From Rathayibacter sp. VKM Ac-2754 (lineage in GTDB: Bacteria; Actinomycetota; Actinomycetes; Actinomycetales; Microbacteriaceae), in assembly GCF_009807095.1 (NCBI RefSeq), contig NZ_WUCC01000003.1, positions 62,001-126,000 of the forward strand: a stretch of DNA of 64,000 bases. Direction: 5' to 3'. Below the pieces are notes generated by a model, which was not told the DNA's origin, made no database searches, and saw nothing but the letters and a program-made list of their open reading frames with translations. Position 1 is the stretch's first letter, and each line of letters starts with the position of its first letter. Positions 3,607-62,745 of the stretch are shown one piece after another. Made by a program: the position numbers and the translations under genes.

Positions 3607-3730
3607 CGTGCGCTCCCTTCGCTGCCCGTTCTTCGTGTCGTGCCGACCCGCCGATGCGGATCCGTCGTCGGCCCGGGGCGGAGCCCGCTCACCCGGACCG
3701 ACGAAGTCGTGTCACTGCCCACCAGCACCC
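3607..3730. other. Spacer between nrdI and the palindromic element
   Basis: This is noncoding sequence upstream of the nrdI ribosome site. I see no gene here. With the adjoining palindrome it makes the nrdH-nrdI gap unusually long for this operon, so it could hold an internal promoter or processing site. No clear -10 or -35 pair stands out. Confidence 0.4.
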
Positions 3731-3836
3731 CCTCTGAGGTGCCTGAGTGGTGAGCTGCAAGGCGGAGGAGGAAGCCGTAGCGGCGCTACGGCGCCCGACG
3801 ACAACGCCGCAGATCGCCGCTCAGGTGCCTCAGAGG
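3731..3836 (+). repeat. Structured palindromic element, copy 1 (nrdH-nrdI gap)
   Basis: This is a 106-nt imperfect palindrome. The outer arms are 3731-3758 and 3809-3836. The conserved inner blocks are 3750-3775 and 3791-3815, and an apical hairpin lies at 3774-3792. Both inner blocks are identical to those of the copy at 7209-7312, while the apical stem and outer arms differ but still pair. Four of the five outer-arm deviations are G.U wobbles when read as plus-strand RNA and would be A.C mismatches on the minus strand. I therefore give it plus orientation. The nrdH stop codon (3830-3832) lies inside the right arm. The function is unknown to me. Confidence 0.75.
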
Positions 3837-4048
3837 GTCGCGATCTTGTCGGGGCGGAAGCCGGACCAGTGATCGTCGTCCGTGATGACGACCGGCGCCT
3901 GCAGGTAGCCGAGGGCCTTGACGGCCTCGAGGGCCTTCTCGTCGACGGAGAGGTCGAACACCTCGTAGTCGATGCCCTTGCTGTCGAGGGCGCGGTAGGT
4001 CGCCGTGCACTGAACGCAGGAGGGCTTGGTGTAGACCGTCACGGCCAT
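3830..4048 (-). CDS. nrdH: Glutaredoxin-like protein NrdH
   Basis: NrdH is a thioredoxin-reductase-dependent electron donor to NrdE. The 72-residue protein has a thioredoxin fold and redox motif CVQC at residues 11-14. Near the C-terminus is WSGFRPDKI, matching the family's conserved W-S-G-F-R-P-D signature. I chose ATG at 4048, preceded by AAAGGA at good spacing. An in-frame upstream ATG at 4090 only adds unrelated residues. It is the first gene of nrdHIEF, downstream of the NrdR-like boxes. Confidence 0.95.
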   Translation of the reverse strand: MAVTVYTKPSCVQCTATYRALDSKGIDYEVFDLSVDEKALEAVKALGYLQAPVVITDDDHWSGFRPDKIATL

Positions 4049-7208: not shown

Positions 7209-7312
7209 TCCGCGGGCCTCCGCGCGGTGAGCTGCAAGGCGGAGGAGGAAGCGATACCGGCGGTATCGCGCCCGACGACAACGCCGCAGATCACCGCGCG
7301 GAGGCCCGCGGA
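7209..7312 (+). repeat. Structured palindromic element, copy 2 (3' of the hemD-like gene)
   Basis: This 104-nt palindrome has a 27-bp outer stem (7209-7235 with 7286-7312) broken by only one G.A opposition. It carries the same inner blocks as copy 1 (7227-7252 and 7268-7292). The apical stem is GCGATACC/GGTATCGC where copy 1 has GCCGTAGC/GCTACGGC, a fully compensated change. It starts 4 bp after the TAA of the minus-strand gene. The same G.A opposition is retained in both copies. Strand assignment follows copy 1. Confidence 0.75.
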
Positions 7313-7316
7313 CCAG

Positions 7317-8435
7317 TTAAGGGGTGGCTAGGCGGTAGCCGCGTTTGATCACGGTCGCAATGACGCGCGGCTCCGGCAGCGCCTGGCGCAGGCGGCTGAT
7401 CGCGACGTCGACGGCGTGGTCGTCGAGGGCTTCGGGGGCGGAGGCGGCGAGCACGGATCGGGCGACCGTCGCGCCCTCCGCGGCGACGAGCGTGCGGAAC
7501 AGCGCGAGGGCGACCGGGGTGAGGGCGACGCGCGTGCCGGCGAGGATCGCGTGGCGGCCTCGCAGCTCGAGGGTCCCGTACTCCGTGTCGATGCGGGGGG
7601 CGGACTGCTCGAGGTGCTCGCAGAGGAGGCGGATGAGGGCGCCCATCCGGAATCGGTCGGGCACGATCGGGAGGATCTGCGCCTCCACGAGGGGGGCGGC
7701 GGTGACCGGGCCGACGGCGGCGGCGACGACGGTCTCGCGGAAGGCGGCCTGGAGGTCGTCGAGGCGGCCGGCCGCCTCGGCGACGGTGAAGAGGGCGTCG
7801 ACCGCGGGGGCGCTGGTGAAGGTGACCGCGTCGATGCCGCCTCCGCAGATCGCATCGATCAGGCGGAGGACGCGCGCGGAGTCCTCGTGCGCGGTCCAGC
7901 GGTAGGGGGCGACGGTCAGCACGGTCGCTCCCGCGCGGGTCAGCCTCTCGAGCTGCGCCGGGTCGGTGAAGCCGTGCAGCTGCACGGCGATCGTGCGTCC
8001 CTCGACCCCCTCGCGCAGGGCCAGATCGACGAGGGAGGTGGTGGTCTCGCGCTCGCTCATGCCGTGGTCGTCGAGGCCGGCGGCGCGGATCGCTCCGCGT
8101 GCCTTGGGTCCGCGGACGAGGATGCGGGCCGACGATAGGGCGTCGGTGAGCTCGAGGCCGGCGGCGTCGGCCGCCTCGAGCCAGCGGCGGAGGCCGTAGG
8201 AGGTCGTGGCGAGGAGCACGTCGGGCCGGGCCGCGATGATCGCGCGGGTCTCGTCCTCGAGGACGCCCTCGGTGTCGACGGCGCGCATCCGGATGGTCGG
8301 CGCGTGCGTCACATCGGCTCCGCGGCGCTCGAACGCGGCGATGAGGTCCTCGGAGCGGCGGTCGGACGTGACTCCGATGCGGAAGCCCTCGAGCTGGTCG
8401 GGGCGGAATCCCGGGGACGGGTCGAGGTCGGTCAT
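7317..8435 (-). CDS. Uroporphyrinogen-III synthase fused to an OmpR-type winged-helix domain
   Basis: The 372-residue protein has a HemD domain at about 15-265, which cyclises hydroxymethylbilane to uroporphyrinogen III. A C-terminal DNA-binding domain of the Trans_reg_C type covers about 285-370: ALTPVALALFRTLV, then a helix-turn-helix and DVAISRLRQALPE, ending VIKRGYRLATP. This fusion is known in actinobacteria next to nitrite reductase genes (the Rv0260c type in mycobacteria). ATG at 8435 starts just after the cobA stop, in the nirB-cobA-hemD order. It may both supply siroheme precursor and regulate the cluster; the regulatory role is inference. Confidence 0.88.
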   Translation of the reverse strand: MTDLDPSPGFRPDQLEGFRIGVTSDRRSEDLIAAFERRGADVTHAPTIRMRAVDTEGVLEDETRAIIAARPDVLLATTSYGLRRWLEAADAAGLELTDALSSARILVRGPKARGAIRAAGLDDHGMSERETTTSLVDLALREGVEGRTIAVQLHGFTDPAQLERLTRAGATVLTVAPYRWTAHEDSARVLRLIDAICGGGIDAVTFTSAPAVDALFTVAEAAGRLDDLQAAFRETVVAAAVGPVTAAPLVEAQILPIVPDRFRMGALIRLLCEHLEQSAPRIDTEYGTLELRGRHAILAGTRVALTPVALALFRTLVAAEGATVARSVLAASAPEALDDHAVDVAISRLRQALPEPRVIATVIKRGYRLATP

Positions 8436-41952: not shown

Positions 41953-42033
41953 ACCTCCGGCTCGTGAAACCACGTTCGGCTCGCAGAATCCGCGGATTCC
42001 TGCGAGCCGAACGTGTTTCTACGAGCCGGAGGT
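41953..42033. repeat. 81-nt near-perfect inverted repeat between convergent genes
   Basis: The arms 41953-41992 and 41993-42033 can pair almost end to end. There are three mismatches in the middle (41964-41970 against 42017-42022) and one single-base bulge near the centre ATCCG/CGGAT. It lies in the 120-bp gap between two convergent genes, with no U-tract. It could be a bidirectional transcription barrier or a REP-like element. Confidence 0.85.
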
Positions 42034-62175: not shown

Positions 62176-62745
62176 CTGATCGAGCCCGCAGCCCGCGCAG
62201 CGGGCGTATCGAGATCCACCATCGTCAGAAGATCAGCGCAGAAGCCTGATCCGCTGTCGCTGGTGGGTCTCGGAGGAAAAGTAACCTCCTGCGTGCGGTC
62301 CCCTGCCTCGCTGATCGAGTAGCCCGCGCAGCGGGCGTATCGAGATCCACCACCGTCAGCAGCCCAGATCAGAAGCCTGATCTGCTGAAGCTGGTGGGTC
62401 TCGATACGCCCCTACGGGGCTACTCGACCAGCAGGGGAGGGCGACGCCTCAGACTTCCCCCTCACCAGCGAGACGCGAAGCGGCTTCACCGCGACCGGTA
62501 GAGCAGACCTCCCGCGTGCGGCCTCCCCATGCTGATCGAGTAGCCCGCGCAGCGGGCGTATCGAGATCCCCCTGCGTCAGAAGTCGAGGGCAGAAGCCTC
62601 ATCCGCTGACGCTGGTGGGTCTCGATACGCCCCTGCGGGGCTACTCTACCAGCTGATAAGGGGCGACGGCTCAGGCTTCTCCCTCACCAGCGACACGCGA
62701 AGCGCCTTCACCGCGCCCGGCAGAACAGACCTCCTGCGTGCGGCC
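62176..62745. repeat. Three-copy composite intergenic repeat with palindromic cores
   Basis: Units start with CTGATCGAG at 62176, 62311 and 62532. Each carries a GCCCGC/GCGGGC hairpin followed by GTATCGAGATCC, then a GAAGCCTGATC..GCTGGTGGGTCTCG part. Copies 2 and 3 also have a GATACGCCCCT..GGGGCTACTC hairpin and a CTCACCAGCG..CCTGCGTGCGG tail. Copy 1 lacks about 86 bp internally. The cluster fills the gap between convergent genes at 62142 and 62768. No gene is present. Confidence 0.85.

Follow-up and report, generated by a model that had tools for sequence, protein, structure and literature searches.

A covarying hairpin with a tandem G.A core on CTAG-flanked elements of Actinomycetota and at gene ends of Rathayibacter

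Closest described systems and distribution of the hairpin

Intergenic palindromes for which single-strand folding is implied are known from the REP/BIME sequences with their RAYT transposases and from the ends of IS200/IS605 elements, the latter using lagging-template polarity. Structured RNA candidates from comparative genomics combine variable stems around conserved non-canonical stretches with covariation. In kink-turns and other tandem G.A motifs, tandem G.A/A.G pairs lie beside a 3-nt bulge.

The window, i.e. the whole 64,000-nt stretch of Rathayibacter sp. VKM Ac-2754 analysed here, contains two copies of a hairpin, at 3733–3834 (104.9 bits) and 7210–7311 (106.0 bits; limits from cmsearch). 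The hairpin resembles REP/BIME and the IS200/IS605 ends in being an intergenic palindrome, but it is far longer, the ends of its mobile form are CTAG-flanked inverted repeats and its strand polarity is the reverse of the expected one. It shares variable stems, a conserved non-canonical core and covariation with the surveyed RNA candidates; unlike them, it is housed in mobile elements, and in Rathayibacter its orientation is antisense to the adjacent gene. As in the kink-turn, tandem G.A/A.G pairs of the core adjoin a 3-nt bulge. A kink-turn was considered and rejected: relative to the GA steps, the bulge does not have the side that a standard kink-turn requires, and the core stacks three such steps.

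The nearest known kind is the bacterial MITEs such as RUP and NEMIS, as described in the review PMC2229807. There, RUP of Streptococcus pneumoniae is proposed to be moved by IS630-Spn1 with a TA target, and NEMIS of the Correia/NEMIS repeats is suggested to influence neighbouring genes at the RNA level. Measured against this description, the hairpin elements are likewise about 100–200 nt long, intergenic, with no protein known, and possess a long stem-loop and inverted repeats at their termini that end in TA (here within CTAG). In contrast to RUP and Correia/NEMIS as described there, the nearly invariant core of the hairpin is common to elements that have different terminal repeats and belong to two phyla, its arms vary with compensation and the Rathayibacter copies are devoid of such ends. 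Unlike RUP in the same source, no autonomous partner was found for the hairpin elements between the facing ends examined. Streptomyces is not named in the main text of PMC2267715.

The sequence-only reading did not recognise the repeat as a named RNA class, and this was borne out: Rfam 15 gave no window matches at the gathering threshold, a search of six loci at E up to 5 gave only one weak, irrelevant match, and no identity to a described family was found. Among the open-access papers searched by sequence words and topic, no title described the hairpin. The family is apparently undescribed so far.

The 27-nt left block of the hairpin occurred nine times in the source genome at up to 3 mismatches, and a stricter two-block pattern gave 14 copies there; the controls (reversed in the case of the left block) gave 0, by which chance is excluded for the window repeats. 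Pattern copies were present in all 15 Rathayibacter genomes searched, 2 to 14 in each and 108 in total, with 0 for the reversed control. The nrdH copy of the window was also detected in Rathayibacter sp. SD072 (L049). The exact-pattern scan of named genomes resulted in at least 117 stretches outside the source genome, so the possibility raised at the outset that related genomes hold no further copies can be set aside. The 80 matches listed were mostly from Streptomyces, and also from Rathayibacter, Nocardioides, Pseudonocardia, Micromonospora, Kribbella, Gordonia, Frondihabitans and others; one metagenome-assembled genome (MAG) labelled Clostridiales was among the matches listed. One pattern match (L012), located inside a coding gene, was regarded as chance and dropped.

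With the covariance model, at least 29 of 396 Actinomycetota genomes and at least 11 of 299 genomes from a second phylum (Bacillota, going by the MAG label) were matched; these are lower bounds due to strict filters and the scoring of 10 or 13 candidates per genome. Some of the low-scoring Actinomycetota matches have a different P2, and chance matches may be among these. Matching plasmid records at E up to 1 numbered 27, with 19 of them from Streptomyces. Viral contigs contained no exact pattern matches, and phage carriage was rejected, the only weak match (E 0.3) being inside a portal gene.

Tandem hairpin copies also occur, e.g. 86 nt apart. In Rathayibacter, tandem duplication of the unit is common, with two or three copies at 84–114 nt spacing (L001, L302, L303, L305, L306, L312, L316, L332) and partial remnants in L151 and L304.

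Fold, covariation and the folding strand

Members of the family, about 100 nt long, are built from a long P1 stem of variable sequence, a P2 stem carrying an AA bulge, an internal region and a likewise variable P3 capped by a triloop. In the internal region three tandem G.A/A.G units can be aligned, beside which CAA is bulged; the core is purine-rich and nearly fixed. In copy 1 the 5' side of P1 (3733–3756, + strand as for all parts) pairs with the 3' side (3811–3834). The left inner block GCAAGGCGGAGGAGG (3757–3771) supplies the 5' side of P2, the AA bulge and the 5' side of the G.A stack; it is followed by P3 (3774–3792, 8 bp, triloop GGC) and the right inner block CGACGACAACGCCGC (3796–3810), which supplies the 3' side of the G.A stack, the CAA bulge and the 3' side of P2. 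The corresponding parts of copy 2 are the P1 arms at 7210–7233 and 7288–7311, assigned by cmsearch, the left inner block at 7234–7248, P3 at 7251–7269 and the right inner block at 7273–7287.

The earlier claim of two shared blocks, 26 and 25 nt, was confirmed with a left block of 27 nt: GGTGAGCTGCAAGGCGGAGGAGGAAGC (starting at 3749 and 7226) and the 25-nt GCGCCCGACGACAACGCCGCAGATC (starting at 3791 and 7268) are identical in both copies. As had also been stated, the 19-nt apical hairpins (8 bp plus triloop) and the outer arms differ in letters and keep their pairing, the arms being about 24 bp rather than 27 bp. P1 of copy 1 has four G.T wobbles on the + strand, that of copy 2 has none, and each has one G.A mismatch.

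Alignment A1 consists of 36 sequences picked by us, out of the 67 remaining, for a 54-nt core; this choice is biased towards well-paired copies, and the pattern by which every one of them was retrieved fixes much of both blocks. From the pool were dropped L012 as chance and L065, L104, L026, L030, L045, L086 and L050, which were short, truncated or unaligned in the arm. Then L011, L013, L054, L073, L099, L101 and one copy each of L001, L141 and L224 were left out because of broken, bulged or shared arms. There are 29 invariant columns, 28 in the two inner blocks (23 of these fixed by the pattern) and one at the P3 loop. All 15 columns of the left inner block are invariant, 14 being pattern-fixed. 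In the right inner block 13 of 15 are invariant, with the last nine pattern-fixed; variation is confined to the first C and to an A that is replaced by G in two sequences.

In the structure we specified, 94.4% of the A1 cells were paired, both-sided changes were detected in 30 of 37 pairs (7 of 8 in P3) with 386 double-change cells, and six pairs never varied. None of 500 shuffles reached the observed covariation values, structures slid along the alignment paired only 28–49% of cells, and RNAalifold recovered the same helices unaided. Absence of covariation, which would have spoken against the proposed structure, was thus not what was found. With all 165 copies taken ungapped, 82.2% of the P1 cells were standard pairs (83.8% in the 67 non-redundant ones); set against the 94.4% obtained over all cells of A1, this reflects bulged or broken arms in some copies.

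The register of the core, read by us from the A1 columns, is G33.A69, A34.G68, G35-C67, G36.A66, A37.G65, G38-C64, G39-C63, G40.A62, A41.G61 and G42-C60, with C70, A71 and A72 bulged. Columns 33.69, 34.68, 36.66 and 37.65 were G.A or A.G in 34 to 36 of the 36 sequences, while columns 40.62 (GA 22, AC 10) and 41.61 (AG 31, CA 3) co-vary. Pair 38-64 is A-T in the second-phylum copies L360 and L365 and T.T in others, e.g. L363. The tandem G.A pairs are inferred to have sheared geometry.

The strand preference was determined from the mismatches. With equal penalties, the P1 arms contained 351 G.T against 19 A.C on the strand with GCAAGGCGG, which splits into 278 against 16 and, where the right-hand gene ends within 40 nt, 73 against 3. 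In A1 the corresponding values were 110 and 10 in P1 and 15 and 4 in P3. Ungapped and with no selection of copies, 553 G.T and 90 A.C were counted in 165 copies, and 211 and 45 in the 67 non-redundant ones; as the copies are related, these cells are not independent. The + strand had the lower folding energy in all 36 A1 sequences with both RNA and DNA parameters, the means being −71.4 kcal/mol for the folding strand and −56.7 kcal/mol for the mRNA-sense strand. Since G.U pairs far outnumber A.C on it, the strand carrying GCAAGGCGGAGGAGG is taken as the folding strand.

As the stems change letters yet stay paired around a nearly fixed core, the folded shape itself appears, from these comparisons, to be under selection. 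The RNA form is more likely than DNA, given the strong preference for wobble pairs over A.C. G.T and G.A are the better mismatches in DNA too, so a DNA hairpin or cruciform could also fold from this strand.

Two further repeats in the window are the 34-nt inverted repeat at 41953–42033, which is 91% complementary with a 13-nt loop and unlike the studied hairpin, and the direct and inverted copies of a GGGCGTATCGAGATCC-containing unit at 62179–62745 with spacings of 131 and 221 nt.

Copies at gene ends of Rathayibacter

The window copies lie beside the nrdHIEF operon and a HemD/regulator gene. Copy 1 is inside the operon, between nrdH and nrdI. The stop codon (3830–3832) of nrdH (3830–4048, − strand; glutaredoxin-like, Pfam Glutaredoxin 2e-15) falls within the 3' arm of P1, which overlaps also the last codons, and the 3' end of the gene forms part of the arm. 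Copy 2 is adjoined by the stop codon of a gene (7317–8435, − strand) encoding HemD, uroporphyrinogen-III synthase, fused to a Trans_reg_C domain (Pfam HEM4 3e-34, Trans_reg_C 6.9e-10). A scan with loops of 3–8 nt found no Rho-independent terminator (GC-rich stem plus T run) at either window copy, and no sigma-70-type promoter-like site was seen at either.

At the nrdH site the element was present in 9 of 15 Rathayibacter species and absent in 6, which makes this copy dispensable. The nrdH product has 73–74 residues when the site is empty and 72 when it is occupied, the element arm supplying TGA. No matching palindrome was seen by eye in the empty relatives, and the core was not found at nrdH in the 25 loci read, out of 28, from other Microbacteriaceae genera. 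In the nine occupied orthologues (the second G001 hit, L257 at a contig end, being left out) the arm letters change, pairing of P1 is kept and 95.1% of cells pair, with both-sided changes in nine pairs. No shuffle out of 500 attained the observed pairing or covariation score; for the number of further pair types, 30 of 500 did. G.T outnumbered A.C also here, 30 to 2 in cells or 11 to 2 in pair columns. At another site, where the neighbouring protein ends in FFKGLHAYSGLDTGM, the arms are largely rewritten across distant species and are still paired (L299, L330, L035, L139, L151). The original proposal of a selected nucleic-acid structure is supported by the pairing and shuffle results of A1 and also by those at the single orthologous nrdH site. 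Judged on sequence comparison, selection acting on a single strand in its folded form best accounts for the strand-specific tolerance of wobbles, the covariation at one site and the near-invariant core.

A second hairpin, rich in GC, is located between copy 1 and nrdI (3661–3706). By eye, a related sequence was seen in 12 of the 15 Rathayibacter nrdH-nrdI loci displayed, including all six element-free species; the form is variant in G009 and G012, and it is absent from G002, G003 and G014.

The surroundings of 58 Rathayibacter copies in seven genomes were examined, 53 of the 108 pattern copies and 5 obtained by a looser pattern. Neighbour genes were taken from our own gene finder, except L314 and the miscalled L311, which were assigned by eye. 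The copies fall at 17 genes distinguished by the C-terminus of the neighbour, with L333 as the 18th. At every assigned site the right-hand gene, on the opposite strand, ends nearby, so that the folding strand is antisense to it. The distance from the core to the gene end, for the nearest copy where called, was 11–44 nt, with the exception of L304 (66 nt). The mirror arrangement was found at no site (17 of 17 in one orientation, two-sided P 1.5e-5). Two further copies in G007 (the second in L319, and L323) are at no assigned site and have no such neighbour. Among the pattern matches listed, 125 were distinct; the right neighbour was encoded on the opposite strand in 87 cases and on the same one in 25, and the remaining 13 had no right neighbour called or were within a called gene.

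A 3'-UTR element was one of the roles offered by the sequence-only reading. According to this explanation the mRNA-sense hairpin would terminate transcription or protect the end of the adjacent mRNA, in the manner of NEMIS or bidirectional terminators. Stop codons adjoin the Rathayibacter copies, many Streptomyces copies are at CTAG stop codons, and the mRNA-sense strand also folds strongly, as its mean energy indicates. However, the pairs are kept on the other strand (351 against 19, and likewise at nrdH), which leaves the A.C mismatches to the mRNA strand, the window copies have no U-tract terminator, and the nrdH copy is within an operon. If the hairpin is an RNA, its antisense position means that it is not the adjacent gene's own 3' UTR, which speaks against a simple 3'-UTR role. 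We regard this explanation as unlikely.

In relation to replication, 37 of 39 copies in five Rathayibacter genomes had the same orientation to the fork, with the folding strand in leading-template polarity; the origin was placed at dnaA, the terminus was assumed opposite, and L311 and L268_3581 were counted as one copy. Since sites are shared between species, the independent evidence is reduced to 14 of 15 assigned sites, against a leading-strand gene background of 53–59% (P about 0.003 at 0.57). The bias is confounded with the fixed orientation to the gene and was kept as secondary. The copies of the Streptomyces genomes G093 and G095 had no obvious bias by eye, with the origin assumed central. 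The lagging-template position of the folded strand, expected for IS200/IS605 or RAYT, was not the prevailing one in these five Rathayibacter genomes, and the suggested single-strand-transposed palindrome is in its simple IS200/IS605 form not supported.

These data bear on whether the folded + strand works as DNA, i.e. as a cruciform or a single-stranded hairpin bound by a transposase or a chromosome protein, with no part for RNA. Such a role would fit the related copies being mobile DNA, the better folding of the + strand in 36 of 36 sequences with DNA parameters, and the common replication orientation, which is expected if a replication-linked single strand matters. The shrinkage and confounding of the bias, the Streptomyces copies and the polarity opposite to the lagging-template use of IS200/IS605 stand against it. 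We consider a purely DNA role fairly unlikely, and a strand acting probably as RNA is preferred.

Copies on CTAG-flanked elements and the proposed role

Many of the copies from Streptomyces, Gordonia, Pseudonocardia and the second phylum are located inside short elements with terminal inverted repeats next to CTAG. L348 and others of the Streptomyces type have, e.g., CTAGGG(C/T)CTGTCGTTTGGATC at both ends. In the Streptomyces genome G105 the element occupies the CTAG stop of a gene, with CTAG on either side of the insertion. This gene was matched in 60 of 61 genomes; in the 30 orthologous Streptomyces loci displayed, the core was present in G105 only and lacking in 29. The occupied and empty sites together document one insertion, with the target duplicated. 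L396, one of the 29, starts with CTAGGCCTGTCG and may hold a leftover element end. A MITE mobilised by IS630/Tc1, as RUP would be, is expected to have a TA target within CTAG and ends matching those of an IS630 transposase element; a CTAG target was seen, and no IS630 partner was identified. No gene of an autonomous partner was found in 29 Streptomyces stretches (9 + 20) and 20 second-phylum stretches, the search covering the stretches between facing ends. Thus, the Streptomyces-type copies have the tested properties of MITEs except an identified partner. CTAG on both sides was found in none of the 73 distinct copies from Rathayibacter and Frondihabitans that were examined with flanks of 110 nt, and the arms differ among the copies of one Rathayibacter genome. 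The window copies, having no common ends, were classified as related resident elements.

Four elements of 166–190 nt contain the hairpin (L346–L349), and seven of 79–98 nt (L339–L345) have the same ends without it; as these short forms exist, the terminal ends evidently persist without the hairpin. In Streptomyces, core-less short elements (L339–L345) and single terminal repeats (among L378–L391) were observed, many at gene ends.

Because core-less elements exist, it was considered whether the core had inserted independently into terminator palindromes already present. In L345, L351 and L262, the short repeats CCCCG, CGAC and GCACGG were seen by eye at the junctions, and these look like slippage deletions. 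Independent insertion was rejected as the general explanation; L340 and L350 have no such junction repeat, and there the core may have been inserted.

Template switching at palindromes, which copies one arm into the other, could keep the arms of functionless miniature-transposon relics paired. Quasi-palindrome correction is a known mutational process, replication slippage is indicated by the deletion derivatives with direct junction repeats (L262, L345, L351; by eye), and some copies have broken arms. However, correction should remove G.T and A.C alike, yet they were found at 351 against 19 (553 against 90 ungapped in all copies). Moreover, the inner core is nearly invariant across genera, at pattern-free positions as well, and recurs in the second phylum. 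A lack of function is therefore considered very unlikely.

We find it slightly more likely than not that the hairpin is a structured element on miniature transposons, partly resident at gene ends, which acts as a folded single strand, probably RNA. Carriage by transposable elements, folding of the + strand and the core as a tandem G.A stack lay beyond the view of the initial reading. In the proposed mechanism the hairpin would be a functional module carried by miniature transposons, a partner, either protein or RNA, would recognise its folded single strand by way of the G.A stack, and the Rathayibacter copies would be retained at gene ends for the activity of the hairpin. As a guess, it might stop antisense transcription into the gene or serve as a protein-bound mark. 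The broader proposal, that an ancient module with a stack of three tandem G.A steps is distributed across Actinomycetota and a second phylum by miniature transposons and is kept antisense at Rathayibacter gene ends as a functional element, is put forward tentatively.

If true, structured RNAs (or DNA hairpins) borne by transposons in this way would form a new class, to which a conserved partner protein of its own would belong. The usual view of bacterial MITEs is that of decayed transposons whose middle is dispensable, whereas here it is the middle that is conserved. Its conservation with several sets of terminal repeats and in two phyla, with surrounding stems that change yet for the most part remain paired, points to a factor that reads the folded single strand. 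With many copies per genome, orthologous sites and pairs of occupied and empty species, the question is directly testable.
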